From positions 2,014,773 through 2,078,772 of the forward strand of contig LT608311.1 of assembly GCA_900095875.1 (NCBI GenBank): a stretch of 64,000 bases of DNA, in the 5' to 3' direction. The translations under genes and the position numbers were made by a program. The first letter of the stretch is position 1. The number at the start of each line of letters is the position of its first letter. Under the pieces are notes generated by a model, which had not been told where the DNA came from, made no database searches, and saw only the letters and a program-made list of their open reading frames with translations. Positions 40,180 through 56,236 of this stretch are shown one piece after another. The stretch comes from Caecibacter massiliensis (GTDB lineage Bacteria > Bacillota > Negativicutes > Veillonellales > Megasphaeraceae).

Positions 40180-41194
40180 AAATATTCTGATTATCAAAAT
40201 GAGTTCTCTTGGTGATGTACTTCATGCCCTGCCGACATTGTATGCCCTGCGTAAAAATTGTCCACAGGCCCGCATCGTCTGGGCCGTGCATCAGAATTTT
40301 TCCGCTGTTCTCCCAGGCAAACCCTATATTGACGATGTTATTTATATTGACAAGAAAAAGTTGAAAAGTTTCTCTTATCTGCGTGGGTTGCGAAAGAAGC
40401 TTCATGACTATCATTTTGACCTCTGCCTGGACTTGCAGGGACTGGCCAAAAGTGCCATTGTGGCCTGGTGTAGTGGTGCAAAAGAAAAGTATGGCTATTG
40501 GGAAATGAGGGAAGGCAGCTTTCTGGTTAGTAAAGGTCTGGCGGGTACTCATCAGTATGACCATGTCATTGAACGGTACCTGGATACAGTCCGGGTTCTG
40601 GGAGGCCGTGTTGATGAGATTGCATTTCCTCTCCCGTCCATTGAAAAAGAGAAAGGTATTATGAAGGAACGATTTAGGGCTTTAGGTCTTACCGGGCCTT
40701 ATATAGCTGTTGTGCCCGGTGCCCGCTGGTCTGTCAAAGAATGGCCGTTGCCATACTGGACAGAATTCCTGAGGCGTGTAACGGCTTCGGGGATGGGAGC
40801 TGTTATTCTGGGCAGTGCTGATGACACAGTAAAAGGACAGGTCATTTCCCGGGATGCGGAGACCGGCATTTATGATTTTACGGGCAAGACCAGCCTGCGG
40901 GAATTGATGGCGGCTATTTCGTCATCCCGTTTATATATCAGTGCCGATACGGGGCCGCTCCATATAGCCAATGCCTTAAAAAAAGAATTGATTGCTTTGT
41001 TCGGTCCTACTTGTCCGGACAGGACCGGCCCGTATGGAGGTCCTGATAGTTCGTACATACACATGATTATTTCTCCTACATCCCAGGCGACCCCGGATCA
41101 CCCCTTAGTCAATGATCCGGAATGCATGTCCCAGATTACCGTTGATACAGTGTGGCATACGTACATACAGGCGATAAAGAAGGTGAATGGATGA
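40166..41194 (+). CDS. waaC: Heptosyltransferase, GT9 family (first of two)
   Basis: Inner-membrane-associated glycosyltransferase of family 9 that moves L,D-heptose from ADP-heptose to the LPS inner core. It has 342 residues. N-terminal IIKMSSLGDVLHALPTL is the acceptor-side signature; the donor side shows VPGARWSVKEWP and SADTGPLHIANAL. Position before a second GT9 gene suggests heptosyltransferase I (WaaC); the assignment of I versus II is inferred. It overlaps gmhB by 14 bases and the next gene by ATGA. Confidence 0.88.
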   Translation: MKDYKNILIIKMSSLGDVLHALPTLYALRKNCPQARIVWAVHQNFSAVLPGKPYIDDVIYIDKKKLKSFSYLRGLRKKLHDYHFDLCLDLQGLAKSAIVAWCSGAKEKYGYWEMREGSFLVSKGLAGTHQYDHVIERYLDTVRVLGGRVDEIAFPLPSIEKEKGIMKERFRALGLTGPYIAVVPGARWSVKEWPLPYWTEFLRRVTASGMGAVILGSADDTVKGQVISRDAETGIYDFTGKTSLRELMAAISSSRLYISADTGPLHIANALKKELIALFGPTCPDRTGPYGGPDSSYIHMIISPTSQATPDHPLVNDPECMSQITVDTVWHTYIQAIKKVNG

Positions 41195-42249
41195 TCAATC
41201 TTCGTCATAAAAAAATTATAGTAACATTTCTCATGCATCTCGGCGATCTGATTTTAATCACTCCTTTTCTGCAGGTGTTGCGCCGTCATGCCACAGGTTC
41301 TGATATCACCCTGGTCGTTGATGAAAAACTGGCCGATGTGGTCCGCTATAATCCTAATATCGATCACCTGGTAACGGTAGATAAAAAAGGAAAGGATAAC
41401 TCTGTCGGTGCACTCTGGCACATTGGGAGGAATTTGCACCGCAATCATTATGATATCCTCATTAATCTTCATCCTAACGAACGGACCAGCTTTCTGGCGT
41501 TTGCCATACATGCCAGGGAATTTGATGGTATGAGTCATTTCCTGTTCCGCCCGTTCATGCACCGGTATACGCGGCTTGACAGGACGCACCTGCATGCGGC
41601 AGACATGTATATCAACGTATTGGAACAGATGGGGATAGAAGACCGGCGCAACGATGGCCTGCAATTTCTTACTTGCCCGGCATGGGAACAGACTGCCCAT
41701 GAATTTTATGCCGCCCAGGGAGTGGAAACCGGTGATAAGCTCATCGGTTTTAATATTGGCAGTGCCGTTCCGCAGAAACGCTGGCCGCCCCGGCGCTTTG
41801 CATCAGTAGCTGATTATTTTAGTGAGAACGGATATCGATGTGTTTTCTTTGGAGGCCCTATGGACATCGATATGGTCCGGGAAGCGGCGGAGCTGATGAA
41901 ATATCCTCCGGTCATTGCGACGGGAAAATTTTCGCTGGGAGAATTAGCGGCAGCCATCCGCTGGTGCTCGCTCTTTATTACTAATGACAGCGGGCCCATG
42001 CATGTCGCCGTCAGTCAGAAGGTCCCTGTCGTCGCCCTGTATGGACCGAGCAACCCGATGTTTTATGGTCCCTATACGGATAAGGCCATTGTCCTTGAAT
42101 CGACAGACCACTATGAAGTTGGAAAAAGTATGAAAAAAATTATTAAGGAAGGAAAATATCAGGGAATTTCCGTTATTTCAGCAGCCCAGGTCATTGAGGC
42201 GGCAGAAGAACTGTTGCAACGGTATCCGCAACAGGCTGCTGCATTGTAA
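41191..42249 (+). CDS. waaF: Heptosyltransferase, GT9 family (second of two)
   Basis: A second family-9 glycosyltransferase of 352 residues. Motifs: IIVTFLMHLGDLILITPFLQ at the N-terminus, FNIGSAVPQKRWPPRRFA in the middle, and TNDSGPMHVAVSQKVPVVALYG for ADP-heptose binding. It most likely adds the second heptose (WaaF role), but other acceptor sugars cannot be excluded. The start is ATG 41191, overlapping the previous stop, with AAGGTG upstream; a longer in-frame GTG at 41152 is not needed. It is the last gene of the heptose operon. Confidence 0.85.
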   Translation: MINLRHKKIIVTFLMHLGDLILITPFLQVLRRHATGSDITLVVDEKLADVVRYNPNIDHLVTVDKKGKDNSVGALWHIGRNLHRNHYDILINLHPNERTSFLAFAIHAREFDGMSHFLFRPFMHRYTRLDRTHLHAADMYINVLEQMGIEDRRNDGLQFLTCPAWEQTAHEFYAAQGVETGDKLIGFNIGSAVPQKRWPPRRFASVADYFSENGYRCVFFGGPMDIDMVREAAELMKYPPVIATGKFSLGELAAAIRWCSLFITNDSGPMHVAVSQKVPVVALYGPSNPMFYGPYTDKAIVLESTDHYEVGKSMKKIIKEGKYQGISVISAAQVIEAAEELLQRYPQQAAAL

Positions 42250-42278
42250 TTGAAAAGGTTGTGCAAATAGCGTATAAT
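42250..42278 (+). promoter_or_regulatory. Strong promoter for the outer-membrane protein gene
   Basis: TTGAAA (42250-42255), 17-base spacer, TATAAT (42273-42278). It begins at the waaF stop codon. Confidence 0.75.
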
Positions 42279-42322
42279 GTAAACCATGAAGTAAATCTAC
42301 GGACTAATCGGAGGTGTGATAT

Positions 42323-42904
42323 ATGAAGAAAGTAATGTTGATAGGTGCTCTTATTGCAGCTGTTTCCATAGGTTCTGTTGCCTGTGCCGCACCCAATAAA
42401 AATCCGCAGGCGGGAGATCTGAAAGCCAACGTCAATTACGGCTTTGATCAGAAAGAAGGAGGCCGCAGTGCCCATAGCCGCTTCAGTGGCGGAGACGTCA
42501 CATACACGATCAATGATAAGGTGGATGTGCAGTACGTCAATAATTATACAAAGGGTGATGACGGGGACAAACTGAATGAACATTATTTACAGGGTGTGTA
42601 CCGGTTTACTCCTTATGTCTCTGCCTATGGCGGCATGAGTTATGTCAAAGCCGATACTTATAGAGATCAGCATTTTTATGGCTATCAGGTCGGCTTGAAA
42701 GGGCAGATACCGATTGGCGAACGCTGGCAGGGATTTGCGTCAGTAGGCGTTGGTGATGATGTCAATTCCTATTCGGTCGGATTAGGATATGATATTACAA
42801 AAGACTGGGATGCTCATATCATGTACCGTCGCGCAGATATTGATGTCGACAATTATGATGATACGGTAAAAGGCTGGCAGATTGGGATGGGGTATAAATT
42901 CTAG
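42323..42904 (+). CDS. Small outer-membrane beta-barrel protein
   Basis: A 193-residue exported protein. The signal peptide ends near residue 22 (ACA-AP). The mature part shows alternating hydrophobic/polar strands separated by short turns and long acidic loops. It closes with a strand ending in Phe (GWQIGMGYKF), the signal recognised by the outer-membrane insertion machinery. About eight strands fit a small OmpA/OmpX-like barrel. The sequence SVAC at 18-21 is a weak lipobox, so lipidation is less likely. It has its own strong promoter and terminator next to the heptose operon. Its cargo or function is unknown. Confidence 0.8.
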   Translation: MKKVMLIGALIAAVSIGSVACAAPNKNPQAGDLKANVNYGFDQKEGGRSAHSRFSGGDVTYTINDKVDVQYVNNYTKGDDGDKLNEHYLQGVYRFTPYVSAYGGMSYVKADTYRDQHFYGYQVGLKGQIPIGERWQGFASVGVGDDVNSYSVGLGYDITKDWDAHIMYRRADIDVDNYDDTVKGWQIGMGYKF

Positions 42905-42942
42905 ATATCCTGTATGTGCCAGGCCATTGTCCGGTTCGTGGG

Positions 42943-42971
42943 GAGACTGTCGTTGAGACAGTCTCTTTTTT
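42943..42971 (+). terminator. Terminator after the outer-membrane protein gene
   Basis: GAGACTGTC, 5-base loop, GACAGTCTC, then TTTTTT. Confidence 0.93.
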
Positions 42972-42973
42972 CG

Positions 42974-43002
42974 TTGACAGTATCCTCTTCGACACGTATA
43001 AT
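42974..43002 (+). promoter_or_regulatory. Consensus sigma-A promoter with no protein gene downstream
   Basis: TTGACA (42974-42979), exactly 17 bases, TATAAT (42997-43002): all 12 consensus positions match. Transcription would start near 43009, at the paired 5' end of a candidate RNA. Confidence 0.88.
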
Positions 43003-43008
43003 AACACG

Positions 43009-43241
43009 TGACATGTGCTGTGGTTGAAAGTCGATGTCAGTCGCAGACAAAGCGATCCACGTAAGGAATCCAAAGTGATTCTGATCATAGTGCGGCCTAG
43101 AAGTAAGTCCTGCCGTAACATGCGAGAGGGCTAGTAGTGGGGGATGATGTACATCTATGAGCGAACGTCCCAGCAGGCGAGTGTGGGGGTAAAGACCAGG
43201 TCAGACATGTCAGGGGCTGTCGCGCTGCGGCAGCTCTTTTG
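43009..43241 (+). ncRNA. Candidate structured non-coding RNA, class unassigned (6S-like architecture)
   Basis: About 230 bases between a perfect promoter and a terminator, with no convincing reading frame. The 5' end TGACATGT (43009-43016) pairs perfectly with ACATGTCA (43205-43212). The stem continues with CTG/CAG (43018-43020 with 43202-43204) and TGGTT/GACCA (43021-43025 with 43194-43198). Smaller hairpins lie inside, for example GAATC/GATTC and CCCA/TGGG. Paired ends plus a separate terminator resemble 6S RNA, but I do not see conserved 6S sequence. SRP RNA (no GGAAGCAGC-type loop), tmRNA and RNase P motifs were not found. The existence of the RNA is well supported; its class is open. Confidence 0.7.
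43214..43241 (+). terminator. Terminator of the candidate RNA
   Basis: GCTGTCG, 5-base loop, CGGCAGC (43216-43234), extended by two G-T/G-C pairs; TTTT follows at 43237-43240. Confidence 0.8.
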
Positions 43242-43273
43242 CATATACAGAGGCATAGTGTCTGCTACAGGTA

Positions 43274-43328
43274 AACGGAAAAAGCTGTTACAATTTCATT
43301 ACATTTGTTTTGTAACGGAAAATCCGTT
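43274..43328 (+). promoter_or_regulatory. Possible operator before the thioesterase operon
   Basis: AACGGAAAA occurs at 43274-43282 and again at 43314-43322, 40 bases apart. The second copy is also part of an inverted repeat AACGGA/TCCGTT (43314-43328) that touches the -35 box. A regulator of acyl-CoA genes could bind here. Confidence 0.4.
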
Positions 43329-43356
43329 TGACGTTTAGAATGTCATATTGTACAAT
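43328..43356 (+). promoter_or_regulatory. Promoter for the thioesterase/acyl-CoA dehydrogenase operon
   Basis: TTGACG (43328-43333), 17-base spacer, TACAAT (43351-43356). Confidence 0.75.
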
Positions 43357-43398
43357 ATAAAGGTATTTATTTCCAACAGTTTTTAGGAGGAGAGTCCC

Positions 43399-43848
43399 AT
43401 GGATAAGGCGCGCATTGCAAAAATGGAAAGAGAATTACAATGCAATCCTTATGATAGATTCATGCAATTTCATGTTCTAAAAGCTGATGAAGATGATACG
43501 GAACTGGTGTTTCACAATGTAGGAACGAAATGGGGAAATCCCAATGGAACACTGTATGGTGGCGTTTTGTATTCTATGGCTGATTCAGCGATGGAAACGG
43601 CGTGTGCCGTTGCAGGAAAAGCTGTCCTGACGCTGGACCTTGCAATGAATTATCTGCGTCCGGCACTGGCGGATACGGTTATTTGTGCTAAGACCCACAT
43701 TTTGCATAACGGCCGGACGACTATGGTAGTAGTCTGCGATTTTTATGATGACAGCGACCGCTATCTGGCACATGGCAAGGGGACGTACTTTGTTACCGGT
43801 GCGTACCAGTACCAGTCTGATAAAGGAGAAACGGCAGATGAAGGATGA
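43399..43848 (+). CDS. PaaI-type hotdog thioesterase (first of two)
   Basis: A 149-residue hotdog-fold protein, probably an acyl-CoA thioesterase working in the cytosol. The helix motif GNPNGTLYGGVLYSMADSAM, near residues 50-69, carries the Asn and the Gly-Gly next to the thioester, and the NYLRPA strand and GRTT...VCDFYD follow. The acyl group cannot be told. GGAGGAG precedes the ATG. The next gene starts 11 bases inside its end, so the two are co-translated. Together with the acyl-CoA dehydrogenase gene it forms a small CoA-ester operon. Confidence 0.87.
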   Translation: MDKARIAKMERELQCNPYDRFMQFHVLKADEDDTELVFHNVGTKWGNPNGTLYGGVLYSMADSAMETACAVAGKAVLTLDLAMNYLRPALADTVICAKTHILHNGRTTMVVVCDFYDDSDRYLAHGKGTYFVTGAYQYQSDKGETADEG

Positions 43849-56206: not shown

Positions 56207-56236
56207 TTGACAGTAAAAACGTTAGGATGGTATAAT
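56207..56236 (+). promoter_or_regulatory. Near-consensus promoter for the GT2 gene
   Basis: TTGACA (56207-56212), 18-base spacer, TATAAT (56231-56236), plus TG one base ahead. The predicted transcript start near 56243 lies over a GTG at 56242 and favours ATG 56272 as the translation start. Confidence 0.8.

Follow-up and report, generated by a model that had tools for sequence, protein, structure and literature searches.

A single-copy raiA (ModT) RNA gene in Caecibacter massiliensis and the distribution of its family among Negativicutes

Known relatives and identity of the RNA

The raiA motif RNA, later renamed ModT, has been described in C. difficile and C. acetobutylicum, and the RNA reported here belongs to the same family. 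In the portions of PMC11706538 on which we draw, ModT is abundant and long-lived, can be complemented in trans, and its deletion delays entry into stationary phase; its loss lowers spore formation via raised c-di-GMP and raises toxin production. The published phenotypes all come from Clostridia and concern sporulation, toxin production, aggregation and, by way of DccA, c-di-GMP. The same text places ModT in many non-spore-formers, proposes a more fundamental process, and names comFC and raiA/HPF as common neighbours of the RNA, frequent but not required.

The window, that is the whole 64 kb stretch of DNA analysed, holds one such RNA. An Rfam covariance search assigned 43008-43213 on the forward strand to RF03072 (raiA motif RNA), with 181.5 bits against a gathering score of 101.3 and an E value of 3.4e-46. 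The match lies above the membership threshold, covers the whole model (1-209 of 209) and was the sole above-threshold Rfam match in the window; the genome carries one copy. The features of the locus are as follows.

42940-42968, + strand: terminator-like hairpin between the upstream outer-membrane-protein gene and the RNA gene (from sequence)
42974-43002, + strand: promoter of sigma-70/SigA type, TTGACA, 17-base spacer, TATAAT, 12 of 12 consensus bases
43008-43213, + strand: conserved core of the raiA (ModT) RNA, RF03072, 181.5 bits, model 1-209
43212-43238, + strand: hairpin of an intrinsic terminator that closes the RNA gene, −18.4 kcal/mol, z −4.3, with a T run at 43237-43240
43328-43356, + strand: promoter-like site 5' of the downstream thioesterase gene, 10 of 12, by consensus match only
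43399-43848, + strand: downstream gene, 4HBT thioesterase (Pfam), with relatives downstream in 17 of 17 loci of the window's family

An earlier, sequence-only reading of this DNA had described a structured non-coding RNA with paired ends, driven by a promoter and closed by a terminator, and this was borne out by the RF03072 score, by covariation and by the promoter and terminator signals. It had matched the RNA to none of 6S, SRP, tmRNA and RNase P. Our search agrees: no family besides RF03072 appeared in 42900-43400 at E up to 1, and the four classes were rejected on this ground. ARAGORN found no tmRNA in the window. A phage origin was also rejected, as the phage collection held no similar DNA at E up to 1e-5.

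The strong match with a known family settles the class and removes the novelty once attached to the locus. The find itself is ordinary; a covariance search names the RNA immediately. Judged by this match, it is a member of the known structured class raiA/ModT, neither a diverged 6S RNA nor a new family, and it shares with that class the full-length covariance match, the P1-P8 layout, pseudoknot 1, a SigA-type promoter just upstream and a terminator just downstream. The best explanation of the whole, which we regard as almost certainly right, is a raiA/ModT gene with its own promoter and terminator, whose product would have a P1-P8 core and act in trans in the growth transition. Sequence comparison directly supports the identity, the single copy, the promoter and terminator signals, the covarying helices with pseudoknot 1, and the conserved position within the family.

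Structure and covariation

The helix layout, including the placement of P3 and P4, is our own reading of the cryo-EM description in the part of PMC11751092 that we used, from which the definition of 'variant 2' is also taken.

43009-43016, + strand: 5' strand of the outer P1 helix, TGACATGT, pairing with 43205-43212
43018-43025, + strand: 5' strand of inner P1, CTG 43018-43020 and TGGTT 43021-43025, from pairings and the covariation alignment
43030-43056, + strand: P3 hairpin, with P3a 43030-43033/43053-43056 and P3b 43036-43038/43046-43048
43039-43045, + strand: P3 loop, one half of pseudoknot 1, pairing with 43091-43097 (the window has 6 of the 7 pairs)
43057-43060, + strand: 5' strand of P4, pairing with 43183-43186; invariant, hence uninformative for covariation
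43091-43097, + strand: pk-loop, the other half of pseudoknot 1, pairing with 43039-43045
43109-43177, + strand: P6-P8 domain in the multi-stem 'variant 2' form, with P6 43109-43113/43173-43177 and P7 and P8 within
43194-43204, + strand: 3' strand of inner P1, GACCA 43194-43198 (with TGGTT) and CAG 43202-43204 (with CTG)
43205-43212, + strand: 3' strand of the outer P1 helix, ACATGTCA, pairing with 43009-43016

The paired ends noticed earlier, TGACATGT/ACATGTCA followed inward by CTG/CAG and TGGTT/GACCA, are thus the P1 helix of the raiA family. Covariation was measured on 47 full-length copies (42 distinct), drawn from all 17 genomes in the family of the window together with the 30 top-scoring loci of a survey of the class; the latter, being picked by best score, lean towards the model. 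Under the cryo-EM-based layout 95.9% of cells were paired, and 25 of 58 pairs changed on both sides among the 42 distinct sequences. Controls in which the partners were slid by 1-3 columns gave 32-42% paired cells and 6-10 pairs changed on both sides. In 500 shuffles the observed values were never reached, with the exception of further pair types, whose number was attained by 10 of them. The Rfam layout did slightly worse, with 91.6% paired and 24 of 54 pairs changed on both sides.

In helix 1 (outer P1 with CTG/CAG), 11 of 12 pairs changed on both sides and 94.0% of cells were paired. At TGGTT/GACCA, four of the five pairs are invariant and so uninformative for covariation. All cells were paired in P3a and P3b, and P3b holds a single covarying pair, C-G changing to U-A. 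Pseudoknot 2, a further feature of the class, has just two pairs. Pseudoknot 1, which has 7 pairs in C. acetobutylicum, was paired in 94.9% of cells and contained two covarying pairs (C-G/U-A and A-U/G-C); its outermost pair is A-C in the window and open in 15 of the 42 sequences. The P5 hairpin, as aligned, was paired in only 78.4% of cells. Because the single sequence, folded to minimum energy, did no better than shuffles (z −1.05), the evidence for structure is the covariation and the Rfam score, not folding energy.

Transcription signals, gene neighbourhood and rival readings

The promoter proposed from sequence at 42974-43002, TTGACA-17-TATAAT, was confirmed at 12 of 12 bases, and the RNA match begins six bases 3' of its −10 box. 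A 12/12 promoter with a 17-base spacer occurs once in the 64 kb window, against 0.02 expected from shuffles. With spacers of 16-18 allowed, the genome holds 45 perfect promoters against 1 in the reversed control. By its consensus match the promoter is strong, yet not unique in the genome or the window. A second perfect TTGACA/TATAAT, with an 18-base spacer, lies in the window near 56207-56236.

In the window's family, where the RNA is single copy in 17 of 17 genomes, a 12/12 promoter stands 3-6 bases before the RNA at 12 of 17 loci, the window included; one further locus has an 11/12 promoter and four have 6-9 of 12. When the letters of the 60 bases before the RNA were shuffled at 46 loci, 12/12 was never reached and 11/12 was reached in 0.12%. 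At one locus (L048, genome G241) the best promoter before an otherwise normal raiA RNA is 6/12, and a hairpin-like repeat is seen by eye instead.

The terminator claim likewise stood, with a hairpin within 43212-43238 (−18.4 kcal/mol, z −4.3), although its T run, of four T, is short. Promoter and terminator signals together point to independent transcription. The housekeeping-type promoter would drive a transcript that starts near 43008-43009 and has one of two ends: close to the P1 helix, for a length of about 206 nt, or at the terminator, for about 230 nt. In C. difficile, short and terminator-extended isoforms exist, and the window has predicted signals for both.

The genes nearest to the RNA encode a porin-like protein and 4HBT thioesterases. 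Directly upstream, at 41152-42904 of the window, lie a heptosyltransferase-type GT9 gene and the gene of the small porin-like outer membrane protein. In the two genomes of genus g2 (loci L035 and L036) a gap of 46 bases separates the end of the GT9 gene from the RNA, and no relative of the porin turned up.

A relative of the 4HBT thioesterase lies downstream of the RNA in all 17 family loci; the one at L043 is 48% identical and 819 bases from the RNA. This constancy, together with the Rfam type label of RF03072 ('Cis-reg; riboswitch'), could be taken to mean that the RNA acts in cis on the thioesterase gene, as its riboswitch or leader. We consider this very unlikely. Past the core come an intrinsic terminator and, at 43328, a separate promoter-like site; complementation in trans is reported in the portions of PMC11706538 used; and the surroundings of the RNA are not constant: in another family of the same order (f2), 15 genomes have both places listed, and in 11 of these HPF lies 3-6 kb downstream of the RNA on the same strand. 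In the window's genome, by contrast with usual raiA/ModT loci, HPF lies 286 kb from the RNA, and the neighbours are the porin-like and thioesterase genes. Among the nine family genomes for which both places are listed, HPF and the RNA share a contig in four (25-324 kb apart) and are on different contigs in five. Since f2 keeps the RNA and HPF close together and the window's family does not, one of the two has moved in the latter. A link with HPF and ribosome hibernation was rejected, as presence of PF16321 does not track the RNA: it was found in 288 of 300 class genomes, and the 12 without it all lie outside the Selenomonas family (defined below).

The suggestion of a diverged 6S RNA (RF00013) drew on similar length, paired ends and a strong promoter in a gene of housekeeping type. 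It was overturned, and its probability is now negligible: the stretch scores 181.5 bits with RF03072, no 6S match was obtained in 42900-43400 at E up to 1, and the genome has its own 6S gene elsewhere (G000:C2:637658-637836, 83.6 bits against a gathering score of 46.4). Least probable of all, and refuted, is a chance promoter with an inverted repeat, or a protein-coding stretch, for which two short overlapping open reading frames and the fold z of −1.05 could be cited, against the covariation, the Rfam score and the conserved position. These two, the only frames of at least 60 aa overlapping the RNA stretch (100 aa antisense, 64 aa sense), matched no Pfam family, which accords with the earlier remark that the region holds no credible gene.

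Distribution in the class and role of the RNA

An even sample of 300 genomes from the class was surveyed for the raiA/ModT RNA. The RNA was found in 181 (E up to 0.001), 177 of them above the gathering score; Spo0A_C was found in 56 and GGDEF in 216 (215 above cut-off). Classed together, 51 genomes have the RNA with both proteins, 52 the RNA with GGDEF only, none the RNA with Spo0A only, 78 the RNA with neither, and 119 no RNA. The 78 include 12 of the 15 genomes of the window's genus, the window's own counted among them. A search of the window's genome for Spo0A, GGDEF and EAL found none of them. EAL occurs in 11 of 61 genomes of the window's order and is absent from the same 12 of 15 genomes of the genus.

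Nearly all RNA-negative genomes, 109 of 119, belong to one family (f14), a count joining 108 from the survey tables and one (G105) from a more permissive search of f14; 107 of the 109 have GGDEF and none has Spo0A. That search, run at E up to 10 on 41 f14 genomes (6 of them outside the 300), gave one RNA match, at E 1.34; it and the class survey used Infernal's stricter filters, by which weak matches are lost. Outside f14, the RNA is present in 181 of 191 genomes. HPF is present in all 109 f14 genomes, though raiA RNA was found in none.

One f14 genome encodes a 608-aa protein, presumably UvrC, that shares 99% identity with a protein from a genome of Selenomonas ruminantium. Among the best 80 of 399 matches, the others come from Selenomonas, Mitsuokella, Megamonas, Schwartzia, Pectinatus, Anaerovibrio, Quinella, 'Selenomonadaceae' and some 'Veillonellaceae bacterium' entries, the last of the 80 being Phascolarctobacterium at 60%. 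By this one protein of one genome f14 is taken to be the Selenomonas family. Selenomonas is a Negativicute, which puts the window in that class too. Its loss of the RNA was probably one event, so the genome counts are not independent.

These distributions bear on function. The hosts of ModT in C. difficile and of the raiA RNA in C. acetobutylicum form spores, whereas no Spo0A was detected in the window's host; in C. difficile the mutant phenotype arises partly via the diguanylate cyclase DccA (PMC11706538, in the portions used), whereas the search of the window's genome detected none of these enzymes. Parts of the spore and c-di-GMP pathways were not found here, so that carrying the function over is inference; the transcript ends, abundance, stability, trans action and growth-transition role are proposed from the work in Clostridia. 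The RNA would adopt the compact P1-P8 core and the pseudoknots seen by cryo-EM, and would, as an RNA or RNP that is likely stable and abundant, help in trans to set when growth gives way to stationary phase. With ribozyme, ligand sensor and protein scaffold as candidate activities, we think that a protein- or ligand-binding RNA acting on general growth physiology is the likeliest.

Since Spo0A, GGDEF and EAL were not found in the window's genome, the core function would probably act ahead of, or alongside, sporulation and c-di-GMP, and the surveyed distribution argues against either as the general job of the RNA. There are 78 hosts without detected GGDEF, and the GGDEF-rich Selenomonas family lacks the RNA, which suggests that c-di-GMP is not the conserved target and that its change in C. 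difficile is a downstream effect. This contrast of GGDEF and RNA is an argument from absence, and cyclases outside the GGDEF family could exist. The conserved job may then be an older growth-physiology function, kept in Negativicutes that have lost both systems and itself lost once, cleanly, at the base of the Selenomonas family, a proposal for and against which we find the balance even. If it is true, the Selenomonas family is a natural knock-out set, whose gene content could reveal a partner of the RNA or a substitute.

The kind of RNA is already known, and ModT in non-spore-formers is already in print (PMC11706538, in the portions used), a point with which the present survey is in agreement. 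In the literature searched, no paper dealt with raiA RNA in Megasphaera or with its absence from Selenomonas relatives; nor were the GGDEF contrast and the family-wide loss found there, the search excluding the main PNAS 2024 study (Soares and others). As to the role of raiA/ModT, the survey separates the RNA from the spore and c-di-GMP pathways and identifies non-spore-forming hosts where a core role is testable free of both.

In the 10 RNA-negative genomes outside the Selenomonas family, a more sensitive search gave nothing convincing (best E 0.99). Eight of them are less than 90% complete; the exceptions are G013 (99%) and G177 (95%). G013, which is Spo0A-positive and presumed to form spores, may represent a second loss. 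Among the 181 positive genomes, four fell below the gathering score. In two of these (G139 and G253) the copy is cut on its 3' side by a contig end, and that of G033 contains an N run. The fourth, G007, has a 105-base raiA RNA gene (L052 1501-1605, minus strand) in which P1 is kept and the middle deleted; HPF follows it on that strand, 3.6 kb downstream. This copy is either decaying, a minimal variant, or the product of an assembly error.
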